DNA from: Lepidurus packardi
Taxonomy: Eukaryota > Arthropoda > Branchiopoda > Notostraca > Triopsidae
Direction of reading: 5' to 3'
DNA length: 64,000 nucleotides
NCBI GenBank assembly: GCA_023053545.1
Contig: JAKZAN010000004.1
Location: 7,316,001-7,380,000, forward strand
Shown: in pieces, positions 23,968 to 61,338 of the stretch
Layout of the letters: every line of letters begins with the position of its first letter
Numbering within the stretch: position 1 is the stretch's first letter
Program-made: the position numbers and the translations under genes
Notes under the pieces: model-generated
Databases searched by the model: none
What the model saw: only the letters and a program-made list of their open reading frames with translations
Told to the model about the DNA's origin: nothing

Positions 23968-25096
23968 TTCACTAATAATGACGGGCATCGAGTTAGCGGT
24001 ATATACGAATATTTAAAAAAAAGGCAAACCTCCGATTTCTTATATCTCATTTAGGTTGACAAGATAATTAGTTCCGCAGTCGGGGAAACCTATATACACT
24101 CCAGCTTTGACGGATGGAGTACTTCTAATGATAGTACCTTTTATGTGACAATCTACTTCAAGGGTAAACGCGAGAATTGGTGGGGTAATACCACTTCGGA
24201 TACTATTAAGAAATTAGGAAACGTAACTATTCTGCAAATGAACTTGCTGAAGATCAATCTGAGTTGTAGGCTAAGTATCAGAGATTGTAAGTTCTTTTCT
24301 CTGCAAGTTCTTACAATACAAATATTAATTATCATTGACTGCCTATAGGTAAACTCTACGAAAAATGTCAAGTAAGCATTTGCAATGCATCGACTACAGC
24401 TATAAACTTCACAGATACAACTGCAATCATCAGTGGCAATGGAAATAACACAGTGACTGACGATAGCTTATTATCAGACGTTGTATATTTTAACAATTCG
24501 GATACAACTCAAGAAGAGACTGCTACGACACACTGGGCAAATATTACATTGATACACTCGACAAATGTTACCACAGCACAATTGAATGTGCCTGAAACAA
24601 CCGAAGACTTACCGTCTGCGTATCCCACTACCGTCTTATCTAATCAGGTATCGGCCATAAGCGTGACAAGTTCTATCGACTCAAGTTCCACCATAACTAC
24701 CCACACTTCAACAGTATATTCAACTCTGGGTTGTACAATACTTGTACTAAACGTATCTCAACGCGTAAACACTTACCAAGCAGTAAATTTCAACAGGACG
24801 AATAACTTTACCACATCTTCTGCAATTATCTCTGACACATCCCAAACCGTGACCACTGTAATACTGACCGAGAACGCTAGTGGTGCAATAAGCCCTTCTT
24901 ATGTCCCATTCAATAGCATTCCTACGCTAGGTCTATCCAATTCGACCTCCCGTAATGACACATCAAATAATATCATTCTTACCACCTTAAGCAGTACAAT
25001 AGAAACTACACCCTAAAACATATCAAGCTAGTCTCAGGAGCGACTAACAAGTCTACAACATCTTTGTCGAGGACGACTTTAAACGTAACCAGTTTA
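23968..25096 (+). pseudogene. Array copy 1: truncated member of the mucin-like membrane glycoprotein family
   Basis: This is a nearly identical, partial duplicate of copy 3 (compare 32416-33552). It starts abruptly inside exon 4 (IELA block), keeps exon 5 (VDKIISSAVGETYIHSSF, about 24055-24286) and most of the Thr-rich stalk exon (from about 24349), and ends at about 25096, where it joins sequence that lies downstream of copy 3. The signal-peptide exons, juxtamembrane block and transmembrane exons are missing. The stalk frame also has a stop at 25014-25016 (TAA where copy 3 has CAA). It cannot make a family-type protein; it is the broken left edge of the duplicated segment. Confidence 0.85.
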
Positions 25097-25569
25097 TTGT
25101 ATATTCAATGTATCTTCAAAAGCAAACATTTTAATCAGATTTCCTTCTGAATCGTTACTTGCGATATCCGTTCTACAGCAAAAAAGTTCGGAGCTGAGGA
25201 TCGATCAAGGCCCTCTTTCTATGAAACTTACTATTGTCATCTTGCCATTGTTTAATATCGACTATATGACACCTGGGGACCCGCACCGCTTTAAGTGCCT
25301 CGCGTTATTGGAGGGGTCAAGTGTCCAAGTCCTTCCATCCGGAATACGAAGTATTCCTTCCCTCGTGAAGATAACTTTCAGCGATATTTTTTTTTCTTTG
25401 AGCAATCAATAGAAGTGCATAGCTACTGTCGTGTTCTTACACTTCGAAGGGTTAGAAGCTCCGAGTTCTACCGTAGTCCGCGTTTCATAGTGTTGCTTCT
25501 GTTGGGATTGTCAGGTGTTCATTTCAACTTAAAGTCCGTTTTTACACATAGAAGGAACACTGTGCAGCA
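25097..25569. other. Upstream flank of copy 2
   Basis: This flank matches 34192-34671, the upstream flank of copy 4, base for base with few differences. It therefore belongs to the large segmental duplication. No coding region is seen. It should include the promoter and 5' UTR of copy 2. Confidence 0.65.
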
Positions 25570-27891
25570 ATGATGGTAAGCAAGGGCAGGACGTGTGACT
25601 CGGTCAGAAACCATGTAGTAAAAGGTAAAGTGATTTCGGTTATATTGTAAAAAGTAACGAACACTTCTTACGTATAGTGTTCCTAGCTTGTTTGTTAATA
25701 CCGGATTATACCACTGCGAATTGCTTCTGTAATCTAAATTATACAACTCGTCAAGCTAGGGACCAGGAAATTGAAAGCAACACAAAGGAATACATTCACG
25801 CATTAACTGCCAATCGGACCGATACCATACGATTGCAAAGTTCCTTTAACCTTACTTTCGAGATTACTAATTACGCAGCAAAGAAGAATCAGAGTCTTGC
25901 GGACTTTGTATTGGCGGGAGGCCTTTATGACATGTCTTGGGTTGTTTTCCCATAAGGTTACAGAACGTTTTTTTAGCATAAATATACGTGACTTAACAGC
26001 TATGTGGATGCGCAGGTTCCTACATGATATTCATAGACGGCAAAAATTTGCCTGATTATGTGCATTATGTCTACCCTAGTATTGTAAAGGATAACCTACG
26101 AGACAGGTCCAAAATATTGAACTACAGACCGCCGATGACTATGATAAATTATAATTATACTAGTCTTGGCTTCGAAAATTTTGCTCCGTCTCTTTGTCAC
26201 TGTAACACAAGCACAGGTAAAATTAAATAAAATAAATCAATCAAAGGCTAAAACTTAGTAGTTAATGCAGCAACTAACGTCAATTTGAAAATGTTTGTGG
26301 TACAGGTTTCTCCATTACCATATACTTTCGGATAGATGTTCCGTTTCAACTTAAATGGGAATCGACTTACACCAGAACTTACACCTTAAACTCGACACTA
26401 TACATGACAGATCTAGAATTAGCGGTACAAATTCCGTGGAAAAGGTCCGGAATCTAAAACGTGTTTCTCCACAGGTTGATGATTACGCTAGTAATGCATT
26501 TGGTGAAGCTTTCATACACTCAGATTTCGGAAACATTGCAACAACCAATATTACGATGCAACTTTACTTCAACGGTCAATATGATGTTTTTTGGAGTAGT
26601 GACACTTCTGAAGTTAACAACAAATTACGCAACATGACTACCTTACACCTAAAATTTCTTAAAACTAACTTGACATTGACTAACCCGCCGCGTGCAATGG
26701 GGTGTAAGTTATGGAACTTGCTACAATCAATACGAAAAATAATAACGATTCTTCTTTTCTTAGGTTATTTTCGGGTTGATTATTCAGACAAAGAATGTAC
26801 AAAACCCACAATTTCGCCTACAACTACTACAATAACGACAAGTACGCTAACCGTCGCAACTGACGCAGAGCCTTCCGTAACAACTGACGCAGAAACTTCC
26901 GTAACAACTGACGCAGAAACTTCCGTAACAACTGTAGCGGAAACTTCCGTAACAACTGAAATGAGCTCAAATCCGTCAAGCTCAAACGGGGCATCCACTA
27001 CCTTAACCAATACTGTGGACGCTGGTACTTCAAATCCTCTCAGCAACAATTCCAGCTACTTAACAACAACAATCAACAGGAACATCATGGGAAGCACTAC
27101 ACCCACTATAATAACAAAGCAATCTAATGTCTCTTCGACAACGAATGTTCCAGGATACAATAACACCTTGACGTCCACGTATACTCAATTGTCCACGAGT
27201 TACACGACAGGTAATCAATAAGTAGGATGGAAATTCATGACAGTTATCACCCAAAATTTAATTTTTCATTGAAATATGAAGGCAGTTCGCTGGTATCAAA
27301 TCAAAATTTGGTCAACAGCACAGAAACTGTCTCATCAGTTAAGGGTAATACCAGCAATACTATTACAATAGATTTGCCTCTTGTGACAACTTCAAACGAA
27401 ACAATTTCAACTAAAGCTAGTTCGACTACTCTATCCACCAACCTTAGCGCGACCAGTTTACCACAAACACCCGTAAATGCATTCCAAAGTCTTTTAAATT
27501 CAGCCACCGCAGATTCGACAACAAAACTGTAGACGAGGACAACGTTCGACAAAGATCCGCTCTTCCTAGCCCAGGTGCCGGTAATTAATAAGGTGTACAA
27601 TGGTGAGCGTAGGTTTTATTCAAGCTCCTTGTGCGGAAGAATTAAATAATTTTTGTAACCAACAGATCGGATTCTGCTAAAACGTGTTCAAGGGACCGTA
27701 GGATATGTAAGCGATCAGGACTATTTCTACACAATCGCAATTTCAGCTGCTCTTGGTAAGTATCAAATCTCTTGTTCCCAAAAAATTATACAATTTGATA
27801 CTTTTGTCCAGGGATACTTATTATTACAGGGCTTTGTCTCATATTCTGCCAGATAGACTGGGTTGCCTTTCTTGCGCCGAAAAAGACTTAA
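25570..27891 (+). pseudogene. Array copy 2: broken, near-identical to copy 5
   Basis: Exons by alignment to copy 5: 25570-25624, 25678-25956, 26016-26216, 26306-26424, 26475-26703, 26764-27210, 27282-27602, 27666-27755, 27812-27891. All splice sites are kept. The reading frame is stopped at the end of exon 2 (TAA at 25953-25955 where copy 5 has TCA) and again in the last stalk exon (TAG at 27530-27532). Fifteen bases are missing in exon 3, removing the PLGAY element that all intact copies carry in some form (PLGVY, PLGTY, PIGVY). The stalk holds four copies of an 8-residue Thr/Ser repeat. Flanks match copy 4 while the body matches copy 5, so this gene looks like the product of replacement by a copy-5-like sequence. 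Confidence 0.88.
26860..26960 (+). repeat. 24-bp coding minisatellite in the stalk exon of copy 2
   Basis: Four tandem units of 24 bp encode (T)DAETSVTT-like octapeptides (variants DAEPSVTT and VAETSVTT). Copy 5 has the same four at about 42170-42270, while copy 4 has a single unit (NAETSVTT), so the repeat grew after the copies separated. Added units lengthen an O-glycosylation-rich stalk in steps of eight residues. Confidence 0.85.
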
Positions 27892-28127
27892 GTCAAGTAA
27901 TGAATTATACATGAGATTATTCCTTCTAATTACGTTTTATTTTGGCTTTATACATATTAGTGTTTTTAGCCTAAATAATCGTGTGCTACTTCGCTTAATT
28001 TTTAAGAAGAATATTGACGAAGTTTACAAGGTTACCAATAGCATAGCAACACGAGTTCACGGTTGCAATGTCCTTCACCGGAAACTTTATTGACTTTTCA
28101 TGTTGATCGCCCACAGAAAAGTACCCG

Positions 28128-30012: not shown

Positions 30013-30060
30013 GGTCCGGCGTCCTTATGTCCTCGTCCTTATGTCCTCGTCCTTATGTCC
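30013..30060 (+). repeat. 14-bp minisatellite (GTCCTTATGTCCTC)n
   Basis: About three direct units. The duplicate position in spacer B (near 38740) has only one unit followed by GTCCTCGTGTCGTCC, so the repeat number differs between the two duplicated halves. Confidence 0.8.
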
Positions 30061-31455: not shown

Positions 31456-33929
31456 ATGCTACAGGTGGGTAGAAAGAAAACGAATGCTGGCAAAAGCTTG
31501 TCAGTCTACATGGGTAAGATAACAACTAAAGAAACTATCTGTGAGTACTAATAATGCGCACGTTGAACAGTTTTACTTGTCGGTCTAGTGATGATTGACT
31601 TTTGTGGTGCTGACTGTATTTGCAACCTAAATTCTACAACCAGACAAGACAGGGATGAAAAATTCGTAACTTATGCGAAGAAGACTTTCGAGCAGTATAC
31701 GAAAAACCAAACGGATTATTTACAGCCAAAAATAGGACAACAAACAAACGGAGGAAATACATCCAGTTTCAACCTTACTTCAAATCTAAATAATTATTAT
31801 GCTAACAAAAGTTGGAATGTTTGGGATTCTGTACTGTTGGGAGACTTGTTCAGCATTGACTGGAAACAGTTTTCTTCAGGTAAGCCCATGATGAAATGGT
31901 TGCTTAACCGTTAAACAAGTTTGCCCAGTATAACAAAACATTTACACCTAGTTTTAAAAAGAGGATATTAATACCATTACTTTAGGCTACACAGGAAATG
32001 TATCTGGACATATATGCTCTTATAACAATAACATCCTACAATGCTACGGAGACATGGTGTCGTTGGATACTTATCTAAAAAACGATTACTTCCTTTTTTT
32101 GGGGAAACCTCTACGAAGTATTGCCACCGAAGCTCGGTTTCCGATAGGTGTTTATAGACCTTATCTATATCGGAACTCCAATTACAGCAGTTACGATACC
32201 TCAAAAACTTCTTGGTCGATCTGCCGATGTTCACCAAATATAAGTACGTATATCGCTACTCGAACAGTTCTTAAACAAGCCGCAAAATTCACATATGTTT
32301 AACTTTCAACTGTATTTCACTCGAGTTCTCTATAGGTTTCTCTTACAGTCTTCGCTTTTTAATAAACACTACATACACAACACTGCAGCCATATAAGAAA
32401 AGTTGGCTAAAAGATTCACTAATAATGACGGACATCGAGTTAGCGGTATATACGAATATTTAAAAAAAAAGGCAAACCTCCGATTTCTTATATCTCATTT
32501 AGGTTGACAAGATAATTAGTTCCGCAGTCGGGGAAACCTATATACACTCCAGCTTTGACGGATGGAGTACTTCTAATGATAGTACCTTTTATGTGAGAAT
32601 CTACTTCAAGGGTAAACGCGAGAATTGGTGGGGTAATACCATTTCGGATACTATCGAGAAATTAGGAAACGTAACTATTCTGCAAATGAACTTGCTGAAG
32701 ATCAATCTGAGTTTTAGGCTAAGCATCAGAGATTGTAAGTTCTTTTCTCTGCAAGTTCTTACAATACAAATATTAATTATCATTGACTGCCTATAGGTAA
32801 ACTCTACGAAAATGGTAAAGTAAGCATTTGTAATGCATCAACTACGGGTATAAACTTCACAGATACAACTAAAATCATCAGTGGCAATGGAAATAACACA
32901 GTGACTGACGATAGCTTATTATCAGACGTTGTATACTTTAATAATTCGGATACAACTCAAGAAGAGACTGCTACGACACATTGGTCAAATATTACATTGA
33001 CACACTCGACAAATGTTACCACAACACAATTAAGTGTGCCTGAAACAACCAAAGAATTACCGTCTGCGTATCCCACTACCCTTTTATCTAATCAGGTATC
33101 GGGCATAAGCGTGACAAGTTCTATCGACCCAAGTTTCACCATAACTACCCACACTTCAACAGTAAATTCAACTCTGGGTAGTACAATACTTGTACTAAAC
33201 GTATCTCAACGCTTAACTACTTACCAAACAGTAAATTACAACGGGACGAATAACTTTACCACTTCTTCTGCAATTATATCTGACACATCCCAAGCCGTGA
33301 CCACTGTAATACTGACCCAGAACGCTAGTGGTACAATAAGCCCGTCTTCTGTCCCATTCAACAGCATATCTACCTTAGGTCTATCCAATTTGACCTCACG
33401 TAATGACACATCAAATAATATCCTTCTTACCACCTTAAGCAGTACAATAGAAAGTACACCCCAAAACATATCAAGCTACTCTTCAGGAGCGACTAACAAG
33501 TCTACAACATCTTTGTCGAGGACGACTTTAAACGTAACCAGTTTACTAAAAACTGAGCCTCAAACAACCAATTCCATAACAAGTGATTTATTGTTTAAAG
33601 CTCACGCTCCAATAATAAAAAAAATATATAATGGTAAGCTACAATGCAGCATCATATTAATCTAAAGAATTATAATTCTCTTTGATTAACAGACAAGGCT
33701 CTCTTGAGACGTGTAGAAGGAACGGTAGCTTCTGTGACGTACGATAGTTACTTTTATACAATCACGATTCCTGTTGCTCTCTGTAATTCGTATCTATATT
33801 TTATTCCAAGATAGATTCCCTAATATATTTCGCCACACTGCAGGCATTGTCGCGGTTTCTTTATTCTGTATCCTATTATTACAGACAGACTGGATTGGAA
33901 GAGCAGATAAAAGGGAAAATATGGTATAA
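31456..33929 (+). CDS. Array copy 3: intact mucin-like type I membrane glycoprotein, unrecognised family
   Basis: Exons 31456-31513, 31571-31879, 31986-32243, 32336-32445, 32503-32734, 32797-33633, 33693-33782, 33844-33929 (659 residues). Exon 1 gives a short basic start and exon 2 a hydrophobic signal segment ending DFCGADCICNLNSTTRQDRD. Exon 3 carries the family element FPIGVY and ends with a CRC pair. Exon 4 ends in MTDIELA. Exon 5 holds VGETYIHSSF and a YFKGK block. Exon 6 is a roughly 280-residue Thr/Ser/Asn-rich stalk with many NxS/T sequons. Exon 7 gives DKALLRRVEGTVAS and the start of the membrane helix (YTITIPVAL), and exon 8 its end (LLLQTDWIGRADKRENMV). Every junction is GT..AG with matching phase. 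The protein should sit on the cell surface with a tail of under 15 residues. Function unknown. Confidence 0.88.
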
Positions 33930-34671: not shown

Positions 34672-36969
34672 ATGATGGTAAGCAAGGGCAGGACGTGTGA
34701 CTCGGGCCGAAATCATGTAGTAAAAGGTAAAGTGATTTCGGTTATATTGTAAGAAGTAACGAGCACTTTTTACGGATAGTGTTCCTAGTTTGTTTGTTAA
34801 TCCCGGAGTACGCCGCGGATATATGTAAGTGTAGTCTAAATTATACAACTCGACAAGCTAGGAACAAAGAAGTAGAAAGAAATGTGAGACAGCACATTCG
34901 AGAATTTACGACCACCAAATCGGACTACGTACTTTCAAATACAAATCCTCCCTTTAACCTTACTTCCAAATTAATTATTCATACAAGCGAAAACCAAAGC
35001 CTTGCGGACTTTGTAGTTGCGGGGGGCCTGTACTAAATATCTTGGAATAATCTCTCGGCAGGTAAATCTAACAGTTAAAACTGTATACGGTAAAACAGTT
35101 TATGTGCAATTTGCAGGATACTCAGGAGATATTCGCACTAGCATGTTCACGTGGAAAATTTTGCCTATTTACTTACAAGAAGACTACGCTCAAGATTTAA
35201 AACGGAGTCTACGAGAAAAGTCACGAGGATTCGACTATCCTTTTGGTGCGTACACACCGCCGTTGTCAGGCAGAGCTTACAGTTATATGGGTTTCGACTG
35301 GGGAAATAATCCTCCGTCCCTTTGTAACTGTTATACAGGCACAGGTAACGCATACAACCAAAATTAGCTAACAGCTAAATATACAGCAAGTATAATATCA
35401 TTTTTAATATGCTCGTGCAGGTTTTGTTTATAGAATCAAGTTTTGGGTAGATACCACTTTGTATCTTACAGAGGGCACGGCTAAATACTGGTCGGTGAAT
35501 ACCACGCTATTTATGACAGATACAGAATTAGCGGTAAAACTTCTGATGTAAAAATAGTACGGATTTTAAACGTGCTTTCCAAAAGGTTGACGATTATGCT
35601 AGTTACGCATTTGGTGAAGTTTACTTACAGTCATTTTTTGAAAACACGACAATTAGAGAAGCCAATCCTTTTACGATGAAACTGTACTTCAAGGGTCAAT
35701 ATGATAACTTTTGGAGTAATAGCACTTCGGAAGTTAACAACAAGCTCCGCAACATGACCACATTACAACTGAAATTTCTTAAAATTAACTTAACACTGAC
35801 TAGCCCGCCGCTTGTAATAGGGTGTAAGTCACCGATCTTTCTGCAATAATTAAGAAAATAAATATTGATTTTCTTCTAGGTGATTTTCGGGTTGATTTTT
35901 ATGACAAAACATGTACTGAACCCACAATTTCGCTATCAACTTCTCAGAATAGTACAATAATGACGAGTACGCTAGCTGATGGCCAAAATGATTCATTCTC
36001 GACAACTGGAGCAGCTAACGCAGAAACTTCCGTTACAACTGAGATGAGCTCAAATCCGTCAATCTCAAACGGGGTGCCCAATACATTAGTCAATAGTGTG
36101 GATACTGATGCGTCAAATTCTGTCATCACCAATTCCAGCAACTTAACAACAAACAACGACGGCTTTACGGGAAACACGAGCATAACGCAGCAATCCAATT
36201 TCTCTTTTGAAACGAATGTTTCAGCATATAATAACACCTTGAACTTGAACTCTACTTATACTCAGCCGTCCATAAATTATACGACAGGTAATCAATTATT
36301 TGGGTGGAAATTCATGATATTTCTCACCAATAATTCAATAATTCATTAAAATGTGAAGGCAGTTCACTGATACCAAATCAAAGTTTGGCCAACAGCACAG
36401 AAACTGTCTCATCAGCAACGGGTAATACCAACAATACGATTACAACAGATTGGCCCCTTACGACAACTTCAAACGAAACAACTTTAACTACAGCTAGTTC
36501 GACCACTGCATCCAGTGACTTTAGCTTGACCAGTTTATCACAAACTCCTGTAAAGGCATCCCAAAGTCCTTTAAGTTCCAGCATCAAAGCTTCGACAACA
36601 GAACTGCCAACGGGGACAACGTTCGACAAGGATCCGCTTTTCCTAGCCAGGGTGCCAGTAATTAGTAAGGTGTACAATGGTGAGTGTACAATTGTTATTT
36701 AAACTCTTTTCATGGAAGAATTAAATAATTTTTGTAACCAACAGATCGGATTCTGCTAAAACGTGTTCAAGGGACAGTAGAATATGTAAGCGATCAGGAC
36801 TATTTCTACACAATCGCAATTCCAGCTGCTCTTGGTAAGTATCAAATCCCTTGTTCCAAAAAATTATACAGTTGGCTATTTTTGTCCAGGGATACTTATT
36901 ATTACAGGGCTTTGTCTCATATTCTGCCAGATAGACTGGGTTGTCTTACTTGCGCCAAAACAGGCCTGA
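34672..36969 (+). pseudogene. Array copy 4: complete exon set with one premature stop
   Basis: Exons 34672-34726, 34780-35061, 35117-35344, 35421-35533, 35586-35823, 35880-36287, 36359-36679, 36745-36834, 36890-36969. All splice sites and phases agree with copy 5, and exons 3-9 are open. The only defect I see is TAA at 35034-35036 near the end of exon 2 (GGLY-stop-ISW, where copy 5 has GGLYDMSW). The ectodomain differs clearly from copies 2 and 5 in exon 3 (SYMGFDWGNNPPSLCNCYTG), while the stalk end and membrane exons are nearly identical. With a single lesion it may be a recent pseudogene or a null allele segregating in the population. Confidence 0.85.
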
Positions 36970-40848: not shown

Positions 40849-43200
40849 ATGATGCGAAGCAATAGTAAAACATGCTGTAAAAGACAAAAGGACGCACTAA
40901 AAGGTAAGCCACGGCACACGAATATGGCTATTTTGTAAAAAAAATAACGAATTAACTTTTAGGAATAATGTTTCTTCTTTGTTTGTTAATACCGGATTAT
41001 ACCACTGCGAAATGCTTCTGTAAACTAAATTATACAACTCGTCAAGCTAGGGACCAGGAAATTGAAAGCAACGCAAAAGAATACATTCACGCATTCACAG
41101 CCAATCGAACCGATACCATAGGATTGCGAAATTCCTTTAACCTTACTTTCGAGATAACTAATTACGCAGCAAAGAAGAATCAGAGTCTTGCGGACTTTGT
41201 ATTGGCGGGAGGCCTTTATGACATGTCTTGGATTGTTTTCCCATCAGGTTACAGAACGTGTTTTTAGCATAAATATACGTGACTTAACAACTATGTGGAT
41301 TCGCAGGTACCTACTTTATATTCATAGACAGCAGAGTTTTGCCTGATTATGTGCGCAATGTCTACCCTAGTATTGTAAAGGATAACCTACGAGACAGGTC
41401 CAAAATATTTAACTACCCTCTGGGTGCCTACAGACCGCCGATGACCATGATAAATTATAATTATACTAGTCTTGGCTTTGAAAATGGTACCTCGTCTCTT
41501 TGTTATTGTAACACAAACACAGGTAAAATTAAATTAAATAAATAAATCAAAGGCTAAAACTTAGTAGTAAATGCAGCAACTAACGTCAATTTGAAAATGT
41601 TCGTGGTACAGGTTTCTCCTTTACCATACAATTTCGGGTAAATGCTCCGTTTGAACTTAAACGGGACTTGACTTACACCTGGTCCTTAAATTCGACGCTA
41701 TACATGACAGATCTAGAATTAGCGGTACAAATTCCGAGGAAAAGGTCCGGTATCTAAAACTTGTTTCTCCACAGGTTGATGATTACGCTAGTAATGCATT
41801 TGGTGAAGCTTTCGTACACTCAAATTTCGGAAACATTACAACAACCAATATTACGATGCAACTTTACTTCAAGGGTCAATATGATCTTTTTTGGAGTAGT
41901 GACACTTCTGAAGTTAACAACAAACTACGCAACATGACTACATTACACCTAAGATTTCTTAAAACTAACTTAACCTTGACTAACCCGCCTCATGCAATAG
42001 GGTGTAAGTTATGGAACTTGCTACAATCATTACGAAAAATAATAACGATTCTTCTTTTCTTAGGTTATTTTCGGGTCGATTATTCAGACAAAGAATGTAC
42101 AAAACCCACAATTTCGCCTACAACTTCTACAACTACTACAATAACGACAAGTACGCTAACCGTCGCAACTGACGCAGAGTCTTCCGTAACAACTGACGAA
42201 GAAACTTCCGTAACAACTGACGCAGAAACTTCCGTAACAACTGTAGCGGAAACTTCCGTATCAACTGAAATGAGCTCAAATCCGTCAACCTCAAACGGGG
42301 CATCCGCTACCTTAAACAATACTGTGGACGCTGGTACTTCAAATCCTCTCAGCAACAATTCCAGCTACTTAACAACAACAATCAACAGCAACATCAAGGG
42401 AAACACTACACCCACTACAATAACAAAACAATCTAATGTCTCTTCGACAACGAATGTTCCAAGATACAATAACATCTTGACCTCCACGTATACTCAATTG
42501 TCCACGAGTTACACGACAGGTAATCAATAAGTAGGATGGAAATACATGACAGTTCTCACCCAAAATTTAATTTTTCATTGAAATATGAAGGCAGTTCGCT
42601 GGTATCAAATCAAAATTTGGTCAACAGCACAGACACTGTCTCATCAGTTACGGGTAATACCAGCAATACTATTACAATAGATTTGCCTCTTGTGACAACT
42701 TCAAACGAAACACTTTCAACTAAAGCTAGTTCGACTACTCTATCCACCAACCTTAGTGCGACCAGTTTACCACAAACACCCGTAAATGCATTCCAAAGTC
42801 TTTTAAATTCAGCCACCGCAGATTCGACAACAAAACTGTTGACGGGGACAACGTTCGACAAAGATCCGCTCTTCCTAGCCCAGGTGCCGGTAATTAGTAA
42901 GGTGTACAATGGTGAGCGTAGGTTTTATTTAAGCTCCTTGTGCGGAAGAATTAAATAATTTTTGTAACTAACAGATCGGATTCTGCTAAAACGTGTTCAA
43001 GGGACCGTAGAATATGTAAGCGATCAGGGGTATTTCTACACAATCGCAATTCCGGCTGCTCTTGGTAAGTATCAAATCTCTTGTTCCCAAAAAATTATAC
43101 AATTTGATACTTTTGTCCAGGGTTACTTATTATTACAGGGCTTTGTCTCATATTCTGCCAGACAGACTGGGTTGCCTTTCTTGCGCCGAAACAGACTTAA
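40849..43200 (+). CDS. Array copy 5: intact mucin-like type I membrane glycoprotein, unrecognised family
   Basis: Exons 40849-40903, 40963-41247, 41307-41522, 41612-41724, 41775-42003, 42064-42519, 42591-42911, 42975-43064, 43121-43200 (614 residues). Signal segment FLLCLLIPDYTTA, then CFCKLNYTTRQARD. Exon 2 ends GGLYDMSWIVFPS. Exon 3 carries YPLGAYRPP and ends LCYCNTNTG. Exon 4 ends YMTDLELA. Exon 5 has FGEAFVHSNF, LYFKGQYD and LTLTNPP. The stalk is split over two exons, the first with four octapeptide repeats, the second ending in the conserved juxtamembrane block FDKDPLFLAQVPVISKVYNG. The membrane helix is split over the last two exons (YTIAIPAALG and LLIITGLCLIFC) and is followed by QTDWVAFLAPKQT. 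No defect seen. It is the likely donor of the sequence now found in copy 2. Confidence 0.9.
42170..42270 (+). repeat. 24-bp coding minisatellite in the stalk exon of copy 5
   Basis: Four in-frame 24-bp units encode octapeptides of the type DAETSVTT with point variants (DAESSVTT, DEETSVTT, VAETSVST). The same array is found in copy 2 and only one unit in copy 4. Confidence 0.85.
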
Positions 43201-44762: not shown

Positions 44763-47156
44763 ATGTGGCAACAGGAGACGAAAAGTTCTAATCATTTTTA
44801 CAATTGGAAGGGGAAAGGTAGTTAAACGACATCTGAAAGACAAAAGGTAAAAATGGTAAAGCTACTCTAATAATTCTACTGATGTTTAGGACTATTCCTT
44901 CTCACTTTTCTGCTGGTACCTGACTTGACCTCCGCCGAATGTATATGCAATCTAACTTACACCAGTCGGCAGACAAGGAATGTACAAGTCGAAAATTACG
45001 CGAAAGAACATATTCACAACATTACAGCCAACAGAACCCAGTACCTACTGACGAAAACGGCCAAATTGTTCAACCTTACTGCCCAACTTGAAAATTATAC
45101 TAAGAATTACCCAACCCTAGGGGACTACGTATTAGTGGGAGGCTTAACAACCATAAGTTGGACAAACATTTCTTCGAATTACGGACTCATGAATAAAAGC
45201 CTACAATCAACTTTTTACAAAACTTCTTCAACTTTAGTAAACACAACCCTAAATTCTACTCTTTCCTGTTGTTGTGGCTTTACTAATTTAAGCCTATCTG
45301 ATTACTTATCGAATTGCTATTTTGACTACCTCGAACGAACGCTACGAGAAACGGGTGCAAATTTCAGTTACCCCTTGGGAGTCTACAATTCATGGGGACG
45401 ACGGAATTACACTTACAGAAGTATTAACGCTATGACGTATTCTCCGAATTGCATTTGTTCAGTTCAAACAGGTGAGTAAACTATCCTGCACACTTAGCTG
45501 GACGATTTAGTAATGTGATATATAGGATTCTCCTACGAGTTACGCGTTGAAATTAATACTACCACGAATTTACCTTTGCAGTATTATAATAAATTTACGG
45601 TAGACGGTAGGCTAATGATGAGAGATCTGGAGTTATCGGTACGCGAAATGAAGCTATACGAAACGTAACAACTATTGAGAGTTTGTGCTTCATATCTTAA
45701 TAGGTTGACAACGCAATTAGCGAGAAACTCGGCCAATCCTATATCCAATCAGATTTCGAACGTTGGCATGAGAATCTCCAAAAGAGCGTCTTTTTCATCA
45801 CATTGTACTTCAAGGGGCAGTATACCGATTCATTGACTTATGCCAGATCAGTCAATAGCAGTATAATTCAACTGAACTTCTTGCCACTCCGCTTTTCAAG
45901 AGTGAACGTGACACTGATTGCTCCGCCAATTATAACCAATTGTAAGCCATTCCTTCCAGAAAAGCTTGACAAGTTATTTTGCTATATTTCATTCCGTTAG
46001 GTTCATTGTACATTAATAATGTACCCAGCCCGTGTTTTCCAGCCATTCCTCTACCACCTAAAACTGGCAACTTCTCATTCACCAACATTTCGGGAACAAA
46101 TATTACGATCGAAGAAACTGCACCAATCATACCTGAAACTTTAAACATACTCTCTGGAAGTTTAGACTTTAGAGATGAAATAATTGTCAACGTAACGGAT
46201 CCAATTGCTGAGAACACTTCCCTTCCTTCTCTCGAAACACCCAACCCTCCAGTAATTACTAGAAAATTAATTATACTCAGAAGGTACCTAAAACATTATG
46301 GTCATTATAGACTCCAACTTCAATTAATACAACGGTAACTATTACTCCAACAATCGACAGCACAGAAGTTCCTCCTCGAGTACTGGAACTTTATTCAACA
46401 ATAATTTCAAATACGAATGGAACCTCATCCTCGCAAACTATTACTGCAAACTACTCCACGTCTAACCAACCTGTACCCAACGATCAAACTATTATGATCG
46501 CTATTCCAGATTTAAACCCAGTAACCCAAACTGTCCCTACCCTGCCTACACAAACTATGTCGAGCAGTTCAACCGCAACGTCACCAGCAGCTAATTCTAC
46601 CGTAGCAATACAAAAAAATCTGAACAATTCAACACTCTCAACAAATGTCCATACTCTACCCACCCAGACCAATCCAACTACATCCCAAAATTTCCAAAGT
46701 ACCTCTACAACTGCTTCTCAAGCTAGCGCCAAAGTACCAGCTTCTACCACCCCATTTGACGACGATCCGTTTTTCAAGCGCGAGGTTCCTATACTGAAAA
46801 GAATTTACAACGGTAAGTTACGCGGTTTTCTTTACCCGACTGTTAATCTCGCGATAAATTGCTATTTTAACCATCATCAGACCCAAAACTTGTGAAATAT
46901 ATGGGAGGAACTGCAACTTCTTTGGCGCAGGAGTCTTATTTATACACTATAGCAATTCCAGCTGCTATTGGTAAATACAATCTCTCTCTTTTTCTAAATA
47001 AAAATAAAAGCGATGTAGAGTAATTAACCAATAATGATGATGTTCCTTCATGCAGGTATTATCGCAGTTAGCATTCTTTTGCTTGCACTCTGCCAAGTTG
47101 ATTGGATAGGATTATTGGCGCCAAGCAAGAATCAGGACAAAGCGGCTATTCTATAA
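44763..47156 (+). CDS. Array copy 6: intact member with exons 2 and 3 fused
   Basis: Exons 44763-44817, 44890-45471, 45526-45638, 45704-45941, 46001-46251, 46311-46812, 46881-46970, 47056-47156 (643 residues). The second exon is 582 nt and covers what are two exons in every other copy: the CICNLTYTSRQTRN start and the SYPLGVY...CICSVQTG end are in one open frame. Exon 4-type ends MRDLELS; exon 5-type has LGQSYIQSDF and LYFKGQY. The stalk begins with a Pro-rich segment (CFPAIPLPPKTG) and ends in FDDDPFFKREVPILKRIYNG. Membrane helix YTIAIPAAIG plus IIAVSILLLALC, then QVDWIGLLAPSKNQDKAAIL. All phases agree. AATAAA at about 47277 is a possible polyadenylation signal. Confidence 0.88.
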
Positions 47157-47962: not shown

Positions 47963-50125
47963 ATGGGAAAGCACAAGGGAATTAGAAGTGATTTCTCAGG
48001 ATTGGCTGGCTCTTTAAAAGGTAAGTCGAATTCCAAAAAATAAAATTGTAAATGACACCAATTTAAACTACAGGAGTAGTGCTGCTAGTCTCTCTGTTGT
48101 TGCCTGACCATACATCCGCAGACTGTCAGTGTAATCTGTACCCGGCCATTCGCCAAATGCGAGAATTATTCATAGAAGATTACGCGCAACAATACATCCA
48201 GAACTTCACAGCAAACGTTACCACGAACCTTCTAGAGCAGTCAAAATGTATGTACAATTTGACAGCAAAGCTCTCCCCTTACATCGGAAATCAAAATTTG
48301 GGGCGATTTACTCTTTTGGGAGGCTTGTACAAAATTTCTGCGGACAAACTGGCCTCAGGTTGCTCAACATAGCTTTATGAGCTTATAGTTCGTGTACATG
48401 AATGGAAATTTTGTCAGGTAACTTTGTATGGTTGGATTCGACAACTGTGGCGAGCTACAATTGTCAGGACCAGAACGTTAACAGGTCGACTTACATTACA
48501 CGTTGCTATTTCCAAACTCTGGAGAAGCAGCTACAAGAGTTTGCGACGAACTGGAGCTACCCATTGGGTGTGTACAAATCATCTTTAATGAGAAACTATA
48601 ATTACGTCAGCAGGGATTCCGTGGAAAACTCAATTTGCTTTTGTTCAACGAACTCAGGTAAAACACAATAAAATCTTGATCCGCAGATTACAAGCAGGAA
48701 TTCAATATTTTCTGATAGGGTTCTCTTATCACATTCACTTTGAGATAGACCCAAGAAATTTACCAGCGCTTTATTATAATCGCACTTCGATTATTGGAAA
48801 ATTAACGGAAAGAGACATAGAATTGGCGGTACGATTGCTCAAATAATAATTTAAAATTAACATTTGGTAAATTTTAAATGTTTAAGGTAGGTTGATAACG
48901 CAACAAGCATCCTATTTGGGGAAACTTACGTCCATTCCGAATTACAAAATTGGATGTCACCTAACAACAGTGTGTTATGCCTCTGGCTCTATTTCAAGGG
49001 TCAGTATGATCTTTGGTGGAATAGCGAATTATCGAACGCTAGCAATACTCTAAGTGAGATGACTGGCTTATATCTGGAGTACCTGCAAACTCGCCTGCTA
49101 GTCGTATCCAAGCCCATAATTAGATCATGTAGGTCTTCTTGTATCACATGATATAACAGAATAGATAGATTCAATTTCATTGCAGGTACTTCTTACGACA
49201 ACGGTACAAGAAGTCTGTGCCTTACACAGCCAGTAGTACCGCCGACGAATGCATCACAAACAAACAATACAACTTACACTCCGTTAAATGGCACCGATCC
49301 TACCTTGCAGCAAGAAAACGTGGCTACAAACACAACGATCCCTTCAACCATACCCTCGACTATAGTCGATGATAGGTCAACGCCAATGCTAATCAACACA
49401 ACTAGTAGCAGCATTGCAAATACTTTTTTTCCTTCGACTGTAAGCTCCACAATTACTGTAAGAATTAGACATTTTTTACTTTACAGGGCATACCTAACAT
49501 CTTAGGATCTTTTTAGACAACCGGCAACCAAAAATTAGAAACACCACAATTTTTTAGCAATACCGTCACTGGAAAAAAATATCCCTTATCTACGACTCTT
49601 TCAACTAGTTTAAGCACTCCAAATAGAACACAGCAACAAACTAACGATACAGTGCCTATCCAAACAGATTCGTTCCGTCATAGCATAACATTATCAACAA
49701 TTGCCTCTAACCTGTCTAATCTAATTACATCTACATCTATCAAAGCTCCGACGAAAGTACTTGCTACTACCCCATTTGACGAGGATCCATTTTTCAAAGC
49801 TGTGGTTCCCGTAATGAAGAAAATATACAACGGTAACTCTCACTACTGTCTTAATATTTCTCTGGATATAAATTAAACCTGTCTTAACCAATAGATAAAT
49901 TTTTGTTAAGTCGCTTTGGAGGAACTGCACAAGGAACTTCGTTGACAGAACAAGGCTTTCTCTACACGATAGCCATTCCGGCTGCACTTGGTAATATGTA
50001 ATCTTATTTCTGAAAAGGGACTAATAATCGTGTGTGTAGGCATACTTACATGTTTCCTTCTTTGCTTGGTATGTTGCCAAATGGACTGGATTGGTTTGTC
50101 AGACCCAAAGAAAGATCAACACTAA
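47963..50125 (+). CDS. Array copy 7: intact mucin-like type I membrane glycoprotein, unrecognised family
   Basis: Exons 47963-48020, 48074-48358, 48418-48657, 48719-48828, 48891-49128, 49186-49457, 49517-49832, 49895-49990, 50040-50125 (566 residues). Start MGKHKGIRSDFSGLAGSLKG, then signal segment VVLLVSLLLPDHTSA and CQCNLYPAIRQMRE. Exon 3 has YPLGVYKSS and ends ICFCSTNSG. Exon 5 has FGETYVHSEL and LYFKGQYDLWW. The stalk spans two exons and ends FDEDPFFKAVVPVMKKIYNG. Helix YTIAIPAALG plus ILTCFLLCLVCC, then QMDWIGLSDPKKDQH. The first stalk exon has two usable phase-0 donors (GTAAGC at 49440 and GTAAGA at 49458), so stalk length could vary by splicing. It pairs with copy 8, sharing over most exons clear base-level identity. 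Confidence 0.9.
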
Positions 50126-50771: not shown

Positions 50772-53456
50772 ATGGGAAAGAACCAGGGAATTAGAAATGC
50801 CCTCGAGGGTTTGGCTGGCTCTTTAAAAGGTACGTCGAATTCCAAAAAATAAAACGGTAAATGACACCCACTTAAACTATACAGGAATAGTGCTGCTAGT
50901 CTCTCTGTTGCTCTCTGACCATGTTTCCGCAGAGTGCCAATGTAATCTGTTCCCGGCCGTACGCCAAATCCGAAGATTTTACATAGAAGATTACGCGCAA
51001 CAATACATCCGGAATTTCACATCAAACGTTACCACGAACCTTTTATATCAGTCAAAATATACCTACAATTTGACGGCAAAGCTCTCCCCTTATATTGGAA
51101 ATCAAAGTTTGGGGCGATTTACTCTTATGGGAGGCCTGTACAACATTTCTGCCGACAGACTTGCCTCAGGTTGCTCAACTTAGCTTTCCGAACTTATAAA
51201 TCGTGGAAAGTAATGGAAATTATTTCAGATAACTCTTTATGGTTAAATACGACAACGTTCTACCTTTGTCAGGACCAGTACGTTAACATGTCGACATACC
51301 TCACACGTTGCTATTTTCAAACTATGGAGAAGCAGCTCCTGGAGTTGGCGACGAATTGGAGCTACACTTTGGGTGTCTACCCGTCACGTTCAAGTGGAAA
51401 CTATACTTACGTTAGCGTTGACTATGTGAAAAACTCAATTTGTTTCTGTTCAACGAGCTCAGGTAAAGCGCAATAAAATCCTGAGCGGCTGATAAAAACC
51501 AGAAATTCAATATTTTCTCATAGGTTTCTCATATCACGTTAACTTAGACGTAGACCCAAGAAATTTATCGGCGCTTTCTTTTAACCGAAGTTCGACTATA
51601 GGAAAATTAACGGAAAGAGACTTGGAATTATCGGTACAATTTCTCAAATAATTATCTAAAATTAACACTGGGTACATTTTAAACGTGTCATATAGGTTGA
51701 TTTCATGACAAGTTCCCTATTTGGCGAATCTTACGTCCATTCTGAATTACTATCACGGCTTTCGACTAACAACAGTACCATATGCATTTTCCTTTACTTC
51801 AAAGGTCAGTATGACCCTTTGTGGAATAACGAATCCTCGAACACTAGCAATACTCTGAGTAAGATGACCGGCTTATATCTGGAGTACCTGCAAACTCGCT
51901 TGCTATTTACAGACAAGCCCGTAATAGTATCATGTAAGTCTTATTGTATCACACGAATATAACCAAATAGATAGATTCAATTTCATTGCAGGTACTTCTT
52001 ACAATAACGGTACAAGAAGTCCGTGCCTTACACAGCCAGTAGTACCGCCGACGAATGCATCACTAACAAACAATACAACTAACATTCCGTTAAATGTCAT
52101 AGATCCTACCATACAGCAAGAAAACGTGGCTACCAACACAACGGTCCCTTCTACCATTCTCTCGATTAGCTTAACGCCTAACCAAATCAACACAAACAGT
52201 GCCAGCATTGAAAATACTTCTCTTACGTTGACTGTAACCTCTACCACTACTGTAGGTATTAGACTTTTATGACTTTACAGTCTTGACTTCTCAGGATCTT
52301 GCTAGGCAACCGGCTTGCCTAATACAACGGTAACAGCGTCACCAACAATGAACACAACTATTACCAGCATTACAAATACTTCACTTCCTTCAACTGTAAG
52401 CTCTACCACTACTGTAAGTATTAGACGTTTATGACTTTACAGGCTTAACTTCTCAGGATCGTTTTAGACAATCGGCTTGCCTAATATATCGGTAATCGTG
52501 TCGCCAACTATGAGTACCACTCTAGCGCCTACTGAACCGCCTACGGCTAGCTCTTCAGTAAGTTCAATTCATTACTGACAAATAATCAGATTAACTTTCC
52601 GTAAAATGTAACCGATCCTAACTTGCAGCACGGAAACGTGACTACAAGCACAACGATCCCTTCTACCATTCCCTCGACTAGCTCAGGGCCAAAACTAACC
52701 AATACAGCTAGTACTAGTGTTGAAAATACTTCCCTTCCTTCGACTGTAAGCCCCACCATTACTGTAAGTATTATTGTATGACTTTACAAGGCATACCTAA
52801 CATCTTAGGATCTTTTTAGTCGACCGGCAACCAAAATCCAGCAACAATCCAATTTCTGAATACTACCAATAGCAGCAGTATAACAAAATCTCCCTTATCT
52901 ACGACTCTAAATTCAACTAATTTAAGCACTCCAAATGGAACACAGCGACAAACTAACGCTACATTGCCTACCAGACCGACTCAGTTCAGTCAGAGCGTAA
53001 CCACAATTGCCTCTACCCTGTCTAACCGAACTACTCTAACTACATCTCAAACCTTTCCAAGCTCTTCTATCAAAGCTTCGACGAAAGTACTTGCTACTAC
53101 CCCATTTGACGAAGATCCCTTTTTCAAAGCTGAGGTTCCCGTAATGAAGAAAATATACAACGGTAACTCTCACTACTGTCTTAATATTTCTCCGGATATA
53201 AATTAAACCTATCTTAACCAATAGATAAATATTTGTTGAGTCGCTTTGGAGGAACTGCACAAGGAACTTCGTTGATAGAACAAGGCTTTTTCTATACGAT
53301 AGCCATTCCGACTGCACTTGGTACAACCACATCTATTTCTTACAAAAGGGATTAATATACGTCTTTTCAGGCATACTTACATGTTCCATTCTTTGCTTGG
53401 CATGTTGCCAAATGGACTGGATTGGCTTGTTAGACCCAAAGAAAAATCAATACTAA
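50772..53456 (+). CDS. Array copy 8: intact member with an expanded stalk of duplicated exons
   Basis: Exons 50772-50829, 50885-51169, 51229-51462, 51524-51633, 51696-51933, 51992-52251, 52306-52413, 52468-52557, 52629-52763, 52820-53162, 53225-53320, 53371-53456 (680 residues if all are used). The ectodomain follows copy 7 (CQCNLFPAVRQIRR, YTLGVYPSR, ICFCSTSSG, FGESYVHSEL, LYFKGQYDPLW). The stalk is built from five exons, of which the three middle ones (108, 90 and 135 nt) are multiples of three in phase 0-0 and share sequence with one another and with the first, so each could be skipped or added without changing frame. It ends FDEDPFFKAEVPVMKKIYNG, then helix YTIAIPTALG plus ILTCSILCLACC and QMDWIGLLDPKKNQY. 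The acceptor of the 135-nt exon (ACTTGCAG at 52628) is the least certain junction. Confidence 0.85.
52200..52820 (+). repeat. Tandem exon-plus-intron cassettes in the copy 8 stalk
   Basis: Each cassette ends a Thr/Ser exon with SSTTT/SPTIT-like codons, then a short intron starting GTAGGTATTAGAC or GTAAGTATTAGAC, containing ATGACTTTACAG and ending in CTCAGGATCGTTTTAG-type acceptors, then an exon starting with (A/T)xCCGGC or ATCGGC (T/I-G). Three to four cassettes are visible. Copy 7 has a single one, with a very similar intron at 49458-49516. Confidence 0.8.
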
Positions 53457-54109: not shown

Positions 54110-54711
54110 ATGGCACGCAAGCAGAAATGCGTAGGGATTAACTCTGCAAGCTTTAAAATTCTTTGCCAAGGTAAGAATGCTTGCAAATTGAGTTATAATG
54201 GAACTGGAATAAAAAAAAATATGGCAAAAGCAGGAATCGTGATCCTTGTTCAGCTTCAACTTCAGCTTCAACTAGCATTCCGGAATTTCATAAATTTCTC
54301 ACTTATATGAAAAAAAAATGTTAAAACGTACTTAAAAATAGTCTTCAAGCTCATCAAGTCAATCGACATCACGTCACTCGTAAGTAGCAGCTTTCGAACA
54401 GATATTCAGCCTACTCAGCTGTCAACAACGATTGGTTTGCAAGGATCACAACTTGAAACTACTTCTTCAATTTCGTCCTCATCGAACGTAACGAATAGTA
54501 GCACGTGGGATTCCACGAGCTCTTCTTTGACGTTACCGTCAAACGGAATGGATTCAAACTTTACTAGAGCATCACCTTCGCAACTAGCATGATTGCAAAT
54601 CAAACGCAGATGACTGCACTTACTAAAAAAGTATCTATTCTTCAACTACACCACTTGATGACGATCCGTTCTTTCAAGCTGTGGTCCCTGTGATGACTAA
54701 AATATACAACG
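54110..54711 (+). pseudogene. Array copy 9: remnant
   Basis: Recognisable parts are a first exon at 54110-54170 (basic start, phase-1 donor GTAAGA, as in other copies), a Ser/Thr stalk stretch at about 54380-54590, and a juxtamembrane block at about 54650-54711 reading PLDDDPFFQAVVPVMTKIYN followed by donor GTAGGT. The ectodomain exons 2-5 and the membrane exons are missing or unrecognisable. It marks the right edge of the tight array, next to AGMO. Confidence 0.75.
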
Positions 54712-55138
54712 GTAGGTCAAAGGGTATCTTCTTTCTTTCTGACAATAAACTGCAAAATATTCCGGGCAGCTGAGAAGATGCTTAGAGGAATAGGAGCAAC
54801 AGCAGCTGCGGATTTGAATGCGTTATTACTTATGGCACTCTTCCAACTCTTGCATATATTCATCAGTGGACATTTAACGTGCCCAGCGTAATCAAACTCT
54901 AATATGCAATAAAGCATTTTAAATTCACCCGAAGCCAACAACGAACGCCTCCAAACCATTTCAGTATATCACTTTTACAATCTTACTGGAATAGCGACAT
55001 GCGTTCCGGACCCTACTGTGAAGAATAGAGTATCGAATGCAAAAGCAACACAAGATAATATTGATGTACTTGGCTTTTGAGCTGTATAGTATATATAATA
55101 TTCATCATGTTCTGGCAGCTTTAATTGTTAAACTAAAA
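54712..55138. other. Intergenic between copy 9 and AGMO
   Basis: A weak trace of an exon-7-like sequence may be present near 54770-54800, but I cannot support it. Otherwise nothing is seen; the right end should hold the AGMO 3' UTR. Confidence 0.45.
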
Positions 55139-59031: not shown

Positions 59032-61338
59032 ATGCTAAAACTAGCACGCGTTTCAAAAGGTAAAGAGATAGTGATATTGTATACCAACTAACAGGCCATT
59101 TAGGGTTAATGTTTGTAATTTGGCTGCTCATACCTGATTTCACCACTGTGGAATGCCAGTGCAACTTAACCTACGCTACTCGACAATTACGGGACTTCGA
59201 AACCGAAAAACGGGTCAATGACTTCATCACAAGCCACACAGCAAGGAAAACGGATGACCTGAGGAAAATTACGACTCCTGTTTTTAACCTTACTTCTCAA
59301 CTTGTCAACAAATTAGCGAAAGAACAAAGTATTCCGGACTTTATTCTTAGTGGAAGACTGTACCAGGTGCTGTGGGATAACTTTACAACAGGTTCGATAC
59401 AAAATTATACGATTTGGTACGGAAAGTGTTATTTACAAGTTCATTTATTTAGGATACAAAGGAAGTTTTTATGGGACAATCGCTATTAAGTCCTGCAATG
59501 ATACATGTAATCTCGCATGGGTTACTTTGCCCGAGTTCGTGAGGTTAGAGTACACTAATCCCCTTGACGCTTACATTAAAAGAACGGCCCTTCAAACTTT
59601 TTACCCTTTGGGCACGTACCGACCAGGGGCCGGCAGAAGTTTTAATTACAGCAATTATAATTTTTCGCAAAATCCGCCACAAGCTTATTCCTGTATTACT
59701 ACTACAGGTAAAATTCATTCAGCCAATTAAAACAAATAAATGCATACGATTATTTAGGTTACGCTTACCGTATGCGCTTTTCAATTGATGGCAAGAATTT
59801 AAAGGAAGCTTACTATACCCATTACGCAGATGGCAGGCAAATGATGACAGATTTGGAACTAGCGGTAAACATGTATACAACTCGGGTTGAAAAATAATAA
59901 AATAATGTTTTCTTATTTCGGTTTTTGTAGGTTGACAACTTTACTAGTTACACATTCGGCGAAACTTACATACAATCTAACTTTGACTTTTGGGATGCCG
60001 ATAGCAACAGCTTTTATGCGACACTTTACTTCAACAACTACTACGACCCTGAATGGGATACGTCTATGTCGGACATAAACCAGAAGCTAATTGGACTTAA
60101 AATCCTAGAACTGAAATACCTAAAGTTCAATTTGACCATTACTTCTCCGCCTACTGCCACGAAATGTGAGAACATTTTATATATACACATTTTTTGTGTT
60201 AGATGCAAACGTGGTACATTGGATTTGTTTCTGTTGGTTAGGCTACTGGTACAACGGTGGCAAAAGCACGGCATGTGACTTCTCTACAACATCTCAAACG
60301 CAAATGGTCACATCGACGAGTACATTAACTGGTACTCAAGAACCAGTCGCTAGTACGTCCACTACTACCCAAGGAACCATTACTAGTACGTTAACTAGAA
60401 CTAGAGAAACACTCGCTAGTGTAGTCACTAGTACCCAAGGAACAATTAGTAGCTCTTTAACTAGTAATCGCGAAAGTTTAAGTACCAAAAGACCTACAAT
60501 TCTAACTCTATTAATAGTAAGTCTTTTTAAATGACACCTACGACAATGTAATCAACTTATATATAGATGCCTTCCTCAGCCAGTCTGACTGCAGATAGGA
60601 ATTTAGCGAACGGCATTCTTCCTACAGTGTTAGCAGTCGATAACATTTTGACTGGAGTGCCACCTTTGCAAACGACTGATAAAGTATCAAATCTACTTGA
60701 TCAGGGTTCTTTTAAGTTTGGCCAAATTTTCACCATTCCTTCACTCAACCGCCAGTCTGAAAGTATTGCGACTTTTCCTGCAGTTAATAACAACACCAGG
60801 GTTCCAACAAATATCACCCTTCTGACGTCAACGCACGAAAAGACCCGACACTCGAGTAAACTTTACAAACGGAGCATTTTCCCAATAATGCAGAGAATTG
60901 GCTTTCGCTTTAGCTGAAATTACCCAAGCCACGAAAACATCAACAATGAATCCCTCTGTTATGCCAGCGTTCGACGATGATCCTTCATTCAAAGCAGTGG
61001 TACCCGTAATACCTAAAGTTTATAACGGTGAGTAAAATGGGCAATGTACCTAGTTTGCCTGTAAATAATTTTTTTGGGGGGGCTTTCTGACAGATAAGTT
61101 TTTGATAAAGGGGATCAAAGAAACTTCACCCGCTTCTGTAGTAACGTCAGCTTATTTATACACTATAACCATTCCAGCTGCTTTTGGTAAGAGTTCAAAT
61201 TTCTCCCTTCAAAATTCAATGGCCTATAAATTCAGTGGTTTACATATAGGAATAACCACAGTCATTGTAATAATTCTCTTATTCTGCCAAATGGACTGGA
61301 TTGACATGGCAGCCTCAAGCACAAAAACCCCGAAATAA
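59032..61338 (+). CDS. Array copy 10: intact, divergent member beyond AGMO
   Basis: Exons 59032-59059, 59095-59391, 59453-59707, 59758-59864, 59931-60165, 60242-60516, 60567-60855, 60914-61027, 61094-61186, 61250-61338 (593 residues). A stop lies just upstream in frame, which fixes the start; the first exon is unusually short (MLKLARVSK). Signal segment LMFVIWLLIPDFTTV, then CQCNLTYATRQLRD. Exon 3 carries YPLGTYRPG and ends CITTTG, with one cysteine of the usual CxC pair missing. Exon 4 ends MTDLELA. Exon 5 has FGETYIQSNF and LYFNNYYDPEW. The stalk takes three exons with Thr/Ser repeats of the type TSTQGTI and is less Thr-rich in its middle; it ends FDDDPSFKAVVPVIPKVYNG. Helix YTITIPAAFG plus ITTVIVIILLFC, then QMDWIDMAASSTKTPK. 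All phases agree. Confidence 0.88.

Follow-up and report, generated by a model that had tools for sequence, protein, structure and literature searches.

Tandem arrays of probable mucin-like membrane glycoproteins with variable heads in the tadpole shrimp Lepidurus packardi

Analysis of a 64,000-nucleotide stretch of the genome of Lepidurus packardi (the window), together with genome searches, suggested that this notostracan probably carries a family of single-pass membrane glycoproteins in which a head is displayed on a mucin stalk, the genes forming an array of alternative surface heads. A nuclear copy of cox1, at 98% identity, also assigns the genome to Lepidurus. The order of parts that we propose is signal, orphan domain, SEA domain, Ser/Thr stalk, conserved juxtamembrane block, one helix and QxDW tail, in which the SEA domain of the window copies is a putative one. 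Judged from the sequences, membrane mucin-like proteins presenting variable heads are the best reading of the family, and their function would follow from this plan. An earlier note on the window had called the products mucin-like membrane glycoproteins, a description that gains support from the architecture and from SEA matches in a second array of these genes.

The tblastn search with 13 exon peptides against the window revealed ten related loci, all on the + strand, with best cross-copy E values per locus from 6e-10 (copy 9) to 4e-55. Eight of them possess exon 2, with homologues at 25671, 31570, 34773, 40965, 44889, 48073, 50884 and 59103, and two of these eight contain in-frame stops; the remaining two are fragments, represented by an exon-5 piece at 24055 and a relic of the juxtamembrane exon at 54639. 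For copies 5 (40849..43200) and 7 (47963..50125), complete models could be built, each with nine exons and with products of 615 and 567 aa, respectively. Copy 3 (31570..33929) has an open frame from exon 2 through the QTDW tail, its exon 1 being unsettled, and copy 10 (59032..61338) extends from a candidate exon 1 to the stop after its QMDW tail. In copy 6 (44763..47156), exons 2 and 3 are fused into a single open frame, with no exon-2 donor and an in-frame read-through into exon 3. Exons 1–5 of copy 8 (50772..53456) were placed, and a 162-nt tandem duplication (52202-52513) lies in its stalk region. Copy 2 (25570..27891), a duplicate of copy 5 (90%), is a pseudogene whose exon 2 has a TAA at its end, and copy 4 (34672..36969) has an in-frame stop within exon 2. 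Copy 1 (23946..25096) is a fragment cut at both ends, which retains the end of exon 4, exon 5 and stalk and is 94% identical to copy 3 at 32393-33545, and copy 9 (54311..54716) is a relic with a stalk-like frame and the juxtamembrane exon only. Direct segmental duplications are part of the array. The earlier note had counted a ten-member family ending at 61338. The ten window loci were recovered, but the number is too low for the family as a whole and the end point did not hold: array 1 continues beyond the window, and a second array lies about 0.42 Mb from the first on the same chromosome. Counted as lower bounds from the genome searches, there are at least 44 exon-2 places in both arrays (two of them weak), 32 of which are contributed by the second array, all on the same strand of one chromosome.

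The exons of copy 5 were placed at 40849-40903, 40963-41247, 41307-41522, 41612-41724, 41775-42003, 42064-42519, 42591-42911, 42975-43064 and 43121-43200, those of copy 7 at 47963-48020, 48074-48358, 48418-48657, 48719-48828, 48891-49128, 49186-49457, 49517-49832, 49895-49990 and 50040-50125, and exons 1–5 of copy 8 at 50772-50829, 50885-51169, 51229-51462, 51524-51633 and 51696-51933. All eight introns in the models of copies 5 and 7 are flanked by GT..AG, which was a condition in choosing the boundaries by hand, and the intron phases were initially imposed, not discovered. A single set of phases fits 11/11 assembled heads, ten of which are open and one of which (copy 4) contains one stop. 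The recurrence of exon sizes between copies, reported in the earlier note, was confirmed: copies 5, 7 and 8 share an exon 2 of 285 nt, the window copies have an exon 4 of 107-119 nt and, where a donor was found, an exon 5 of 229-238 nt, and in the two completed models the penultimate exon measures 90 and 96 nt and the last one 80 and 86 nt. The same note had credited six genes with complete open frames and GT..AG junctions; copies 5 and 7 bear this out, whereas copies 3, 6, 8 and 10 do so only through an unspecific path search. This permissive search opened the stalk in copies 3, 6 and 10, and in copy 8 it found no path with up to four introns and a path with five introns under looser rules. 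It also opened copies 2 and 4, which are both broken, as well as copy 7 via introns that are not those of its model, so that it cannot be regarded as specific.

The predicted proteins begin with an N-terminal hydrophobic segment, which is followed by two domains: the first, marked by CxCNL..RQxR and then P-L/I-G, spans about 160 residues and the second about 115. In copy 7, exon 4 encodes the first third of this second (SEA-like) domain and exon 5 its C-terminal two thirds. In the two completed models, the stalk is 177 and 240 residues long; Ser/Thr makes up 37% and 45% of it and Pro only 8% and 4%. The end of the juxtamembrane block, previously given as YNG, reads YND in the completed proteins, where the codon is split by an intron. 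In copy 7, exons 8–9 (49895..50125) encode the stretch below this block, the single helix and the CQMDW tail. Judged by eye, copies 5 and 7 have one hydrophobic segment, in exons 8–9, and a short tail, in agreement with the one transmembrane helix and cytoplasmic tail of SEA-type membrane mucins. Furthermore, a pattern search demanding QxDW detected a hydrophobic stretch with this motif near 8/8 exon-2-bearing window copies, with tails of 14-21 residues counted from C/L-Q-x-D-W. The exon order second domain, stalk and helix is common to copies 5 and 7 and the second-array gene at 7852504. Sequons exceeded the shuffled mean in both heads tested (9 versus 4.0 in copy 7 and 11 versus 4.4 in copy 5), and the stalk of copy 5 showed no enrichment.

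No relative of the window copies emerged from Pfam, from solved structures or from a set of 5.8 billion proteins. The 5.8-billion-protein search, which depends on shared five-residue words and was queried with window-type copies, gave nothing at E <= 10 either for copy 7 (2130 candidates) or for the nine-copy alignment (7095 candidates). Pfam produced nothing credible with window-type single exons, spliced heads, all members of the two domain alignments or the majority sequences. Matches to MLD, YaiO, Rhv and CBM53 were weak and restricted to one member each time, and were dismissed as chance. Sequence searches of solved structures with window-type copies likewise gave no credible match, and no paper on this tadpole-shrimp family was found in the PubMed Central open-licence literature on tadpole-shrimp genomes and SEA mucins. 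The earlier statement that the proteins match no family is upheld for the whole protein and the first domain in the databases searched, but would fail for the second domain if this is a diverged SEA domain. The profile and fold searches that had been proposed as a check likewise gave no strong match for the window copies, but sub-threshold SEA matches in the second array.

PF01390 (SEA) was the top Pfam match of the second domain in five of the seven second-array places tested, out of 32 (the two misses being copies 14 and 15), with E values of 1e-5 to 2e-3 and scores of 18.8-25.9 bits, all under the curated cut-off of 26.4. The majority sequence of four SEA-matching domains, which is not a natural protein, reached 45.3 bits. 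The sole solved-structure match of the second-array profile was 1ivz (E 0.069), a MUC16 SEA domain, at the start of the second domain. A genome-wide PF01390 search yielded seven matches, one of which (E 3.1) lies inside the second-array gene at 7878582. This search also turned up SEA exons at other places in the genome. The SEA self-cleaving motif is G-S between the two central strands; by eye, alignments of 12 and 4 sequences show GS at the expected place only in copy 11. At this sub-threshold level, the second domain of the five second-array genes appears to be an SEA domain devoid of the usual cleavage motif.

In the window copies, the second domain is probably an SEA domain that has diverged strongly. 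The heads of the two arrays are collinear (hhalign probability 98.2%, E 3.5e-14, 223 columns), the alignment extending into the second domain, and most sequences of both groups have their exon 4/5 junction at E-x-A/S|x-D. In the structural model of the second domain (mean pLDDT 60, including a 22-residue intron read-through), the elements run strand-helix-helix-strand-strand-helix-strands, an order that fits. A separate non-SEA domain that replaced SEA in array 1 is the doubtful alternative that these three observations speak against, although 0/12 window-type second domains (11 from array 1 and copy 15) matched SEA in Pfam and the second domains alone gave no significant alignment between the groups (probability 0.5%; 1/48 pairs above z 3). 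Copies 14 and 19 also lacked an SEA match in Pfam. Foldseek returned nothing for the model at E 0.001, and ferredoxin-like folds but no recognised SEA entry among the 50 matches listed.

With a diverged SEA domain, the proteins would resemble membrane mucins of the MUC1/MUC13/MUC16 type, with which they share signal, Ser/Thr-rich stalk, one helix and short tail, and also SEA, sub-threshold in the second-array genes and putative in the window copies. By the rule given in PMC1552070, a mucin combines one or more stretches rich in Pro, Thr and Ser (PTS) with an SEA or VWD domain, the SEA domain grouping phylogenetically with those of known mucins. In Muc13 and Muc16 the SEA domain comes after the PTS region, whereas in Lepidurus it would sit above the stalk and before it; the multi-exon stalk has a precedent in chicken Muc13, in which the mucin region is split across several exons (both from PMC1552070). 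The Lepidurus proteins further differ in the orphan domain that precedes SEA, in the virtual lack of the GS motif, and in their dozens of tandem copies, for which no whole-protein sequence relative was found.

Mean identity among the nine heads compared is 30-39% in the head exons, and the juxtamembrane block is better conserved; its 71% identity was obtained without copy 3, which has a clearly more divergent block, and is hence too high. In the alignment underlying these identities, the nine-copy search, a solved-structure search, the hhalign comparison and the comparison of 48 pairs, copy 7 is short of 10 residues near exon 8, and in other rows the segment that links the juxtamembrane block to the helix is trimmed or missing. 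Such head identity, together with the broken copies and segmental duplications, fits the fast turnover suggested earlier. Copies 7 and 8 gave a dN/dS of 0.46 (bootstrap 0.32-0.67), and the five introns compared are 80-91% identical, a divergence close to dN and below dS. Since intron divergence is no greater than dN, selection on this pair is not proven, and the ratio was no longer taken as proof of purifying selection because introns are as similar as exons. Tandem families that are confined to one lineage and carry variable surface heads on stalks are a known general kind. The Lepidurus genes share with them direct tandem copies, broken copies, a better conserved anchor and a divergent head; they have no domain in common with any that was recognised.

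In the reading that we prefer, tandem duplication would multiply the copies, which would decay one by one, and the anchor would change less while the heads diverge, implying that the array serves as a set of alternative heads for barrier, decoy or recognition use. The stalk would be O-glycosylated, the protein would be displayed on the surface of epithelia or blood cells, its head facing microbes, food-borne material or other cells; the tail is so short that signalling of its own is improbable. A diversified immune or self/non-self recognition system, in which selection would favour heads that vary between individuals or that bind changing pathogens or partner cells, with the stalk as a mere spacer, is on the whole unlikely. 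Variable heads above a less variable anchor, the 44 exon-2 places with segmental duplications and broken copies, and a dN close to intron divergence in copies 7 and 8, which allows relaxed or positive selection, are consistent with it, whereas the dN/dS of this pair does not exceed 1 and no signalling motif was recognised in the short tail. A narrower form of it, in which Notostraca alone would possess a hypervariable surface-recognition repertoire of over 40 genes, a new domain and a diverged SEA domain together making up interchangeable heads on a mucin stalk and variability being kept by pathogen or self/non-self selection, is distinctly unlikely.

Gamete, egg-coat or reproductive-tract surface proteins likewise evolve fast and duplicate in tandem, and luminal epithelium is a setting suited to the SEA-mucin architecture; with head divergence in their favour but no pointer to the gonad in the sequence, they seem an even less probable identity for the family. 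An origin from domesticated or endogenous viral envelope genes, which the glycosylated head, mucin-like stalk, one helix and short tail might recall, is very improbable in view of the eight introns of each complete gene, SEA in the sister array, the protein searches without a match, and the lack of a consistent viral Pfam match (two viral-capsid families matched weakly, with one member each).

If the reading of a variable head on a mucin stalk is right, a compact crustacean genome gives two tandem arrays, with about 44 exon-2 places, to one surface-protein plan that is absent from the yield of the searched databases. This plan would be a membrane-mucin design with SEA at the tip, not the base, plus a new orphan domain. 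Direct surveys of copy number and head variation in tadpole-shrimp populations may reveal whether the repertoires track pathogens, mating or barrier function.

Searching the window with exon peptides revealed ten loci of the putative mucin-like glycoprotein array (array 1), all on the plus strand at 23946-61338, and exon 2 was present in eight of them. Copy 1 (+) is a fragment truncated at both ends, and copy 9 (+) is left with a stalk-like frame and a juxtamembrane exon only. Complete nine-exon models were obtained for copies 5 and 7, with a terminal stop and GT..AG in all eight introns of each, the exon boundaries having been chosen by hand. In copies 2, 4, 5, 6, 7, 8, and 10, exon 1 was selected among many ATG candidates, and the chosen exon is short, ends in phase 1 and lies approximately 45-73 nt upstream of exon 2; no choice was settled for copy 3. 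The spliced coding structure recurs across copies, and phases 1, 1, and 0 between exons 2, 3, 4, and 5 were common to 11 assembled heads, the head comprising domain 1 (exons 2-3) and domain 2 (exons 4-5). Exons 2 and 3 are fused in copy 6, one stop lies within the assembled head of copy 4, and a TAA was found at the end of exon 2 in copy 2. Direct segmental duplications were detected by blastn for copies 1 and 3 (94%), copies 2 and 5 (90%), and copies 7 and 8 (78-81%). Copy 2 carries its last-exon region twice (27772-28127 and 28134-28467, 77%), with an extra CQIDW stretch at 28208, and 28134-30608 is a 90% repeat of 36851-39295.

On the left side of the array, a gene at 12392-16985 matches the N-terminal family of calcium-activated chloride channels (Pfam CLCA, E 4e-34), and a following exon gave a VWA match just under the cut-off (E 3e-4). 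An exon at 21251-22054 carries a similar helix and tail as judged by eye. On the minus strand, 63034-63510 may be the last exon of a gene of the amiloride-sensitive sodium channel type (Pfam ASC, E 0.002, under the cut-off).

The window occupies C3:7316001-7380000 on the 12.87-Mb contig C3. The assembly (108.56 Mb, 344 contigs) was searched with exon 5 and exon 2, which revealed three further array-1 copies just right of the window, at about C3:7383376, 7386052, and 7391356, and a juxtamembrane fragment at about C3:7390191. More divergent exon-2 queries uncovered a second array at C3:7816556-7924397, and a single copy lies at C3:8034524. At least 44 exon-2 places were counted, all on one strand of C3: 11 in the first array (eight inside the window), 32 in the second, and the single copy. 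Among the 32, two are weak, with no better than E 0.84 and 1.5, and the match is interrupted by a stop in three. The ten loci of the earlier note were recovered, but the family is larger than the ten members it had proposed. In a tree of 18 exon-2 sequences, the 11 from array 1 stood apart from six array-2 copies with only moderate support (81/74). An exon-2-like match on the opposite, minus strand was observed beside copy 13 (L017:3388-3570, E 2e-4).

Many nuclear copies of mitochondrial cox1 with internal TGA were observed on the large contigs C1, C2, C4, C5, and C6. The C6 copy gives a sensible translation under the invertebrate mitochondrial code. Among the matches listed in a protein search, its identity was 98% with Lepidurus apus apus and Lepidurus couesii, 97% with two further Lepidurus entries, and 96% with Triops entries, which marks the host as a tadpole shrimp, most likely a Lepidurus. 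Contigs C43, C52, and C214 hold cox1-family open frames without internal TGA, perhaps from bacterial contamination or symbionts.

The predicted plan of the proteins is membrane-anchored, and divergence peaks in the head. Pairwise comparison of nine rows, eight from array 1 and one (copy 15) from the second array, gave mean identities of 30-39% for the head exons, 47% for the helix and 45% for the tail (21 pairs each), and 71% for the juxtamembrane block, an overestimate since copy 3 was omitted (28 pairs). With a search pattern that itself demands QxDW, such a stretch was located close to each of the eight window copies that bear exon 2; the second-array gene at C3:7852504 has CHIDC at this place. 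The stalk is encoded by two exons in copy 5 (45% Ser+Thr) and copy 7 (37%), copy 3 may need only one, and the stalk of copy 8 contains a 162-nt tandem duplication. For exons 2-5 of copies 7 and 8, dN was 0.166 and dS 0.363 (dN/dS 0.46, bootstrap 0.32-0.67). A simple reading as purifying selection is weakened by the introns: the five that were compared share 80-91% identity, a divergence close to dN and below dS. For pairs 2/5 and 1/3, dN/dS was indistinguishable from 1. Coding constraint is indicated more strongly by the 10 of 11 assembled heads that are open despite such low mean identity among the nine compared.

Domain 1 has an invariant CxC and other conserved elements, found no relative in the searches made, and was modelled at low confidence as mostly helical with a terminal hairpin. 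As for domain 2, SEA (PF01390) was the top match for joined exon 4+5 peptides near C3:7852504, 7866726, 7870065, and 7878582, and also near C3:7855492, where the peptide is shortened by the end of the sequence piece. These five matches, from seven second-array domain 2s tested, range from E 1.1e-5 to 1.8e-3, each below the curated cut-off; the two second-array domains without a match are those of copies 14 and 15, and copy 19, the single copy, gave none either. The majority sequence of four second-array domain 2s scored 45.3 bits against SEA, and a profile of four second-array heads retrieved a single solved chain at E <= 10. This chain is 1ivz, a MUC16 SEA domain, and its alignment (E 0.069) falls at the beginning of domain 2. 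Pfam SEA was matched by none of 12 window-type domain 2s (11 from array 1 and copy 15). The window-type and second-array heads are homologous (hhalign 98.2%, E 3.5e-14; z > 3 in 34 of 36 pairs). Since domain 2 alone showed no detectable similarity between the groups (z > 3 in 1 of 48 pairs), the link of the window copies to SEA rests on collinearity, on a phase-0 intron that both groups share and whose E-x-A/S|x-D surroundings are similar, and on an element order, in a weak structure model, that fits SEA. On these grounds, domain 2 of the window copies is quite probably a SEA domain.

A potential mucin has been defined by a PTS domain together with a SEA or VWD domain (PMC1552070). By this rule, the second-array genes nearly qualify and the window copies do so only by inference. 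The tadpole-shrimp order, SEA and then stalk, differs from that of Muc13 and Muc16 as described there, in which SEA follows the PTS region, and the family was therefore filed as working like a membrane mucin rather than under any mucin family with a name. Searches of open-licence papers in PubMed Central yielded none that deals with it. Our overall reading, which we hold to be likely, is that these are membrane mucin-like proteins presenting variable heads. The stalk would be glycosylated and the proteins would lie at the cell surface, where they may act as barrier, decoy, or recognition proteins, among which sequence alone does not choose. Because the anchor is conserved and the heads are variable, presentation of variable heads is mildly favoured over a bulk barrier.
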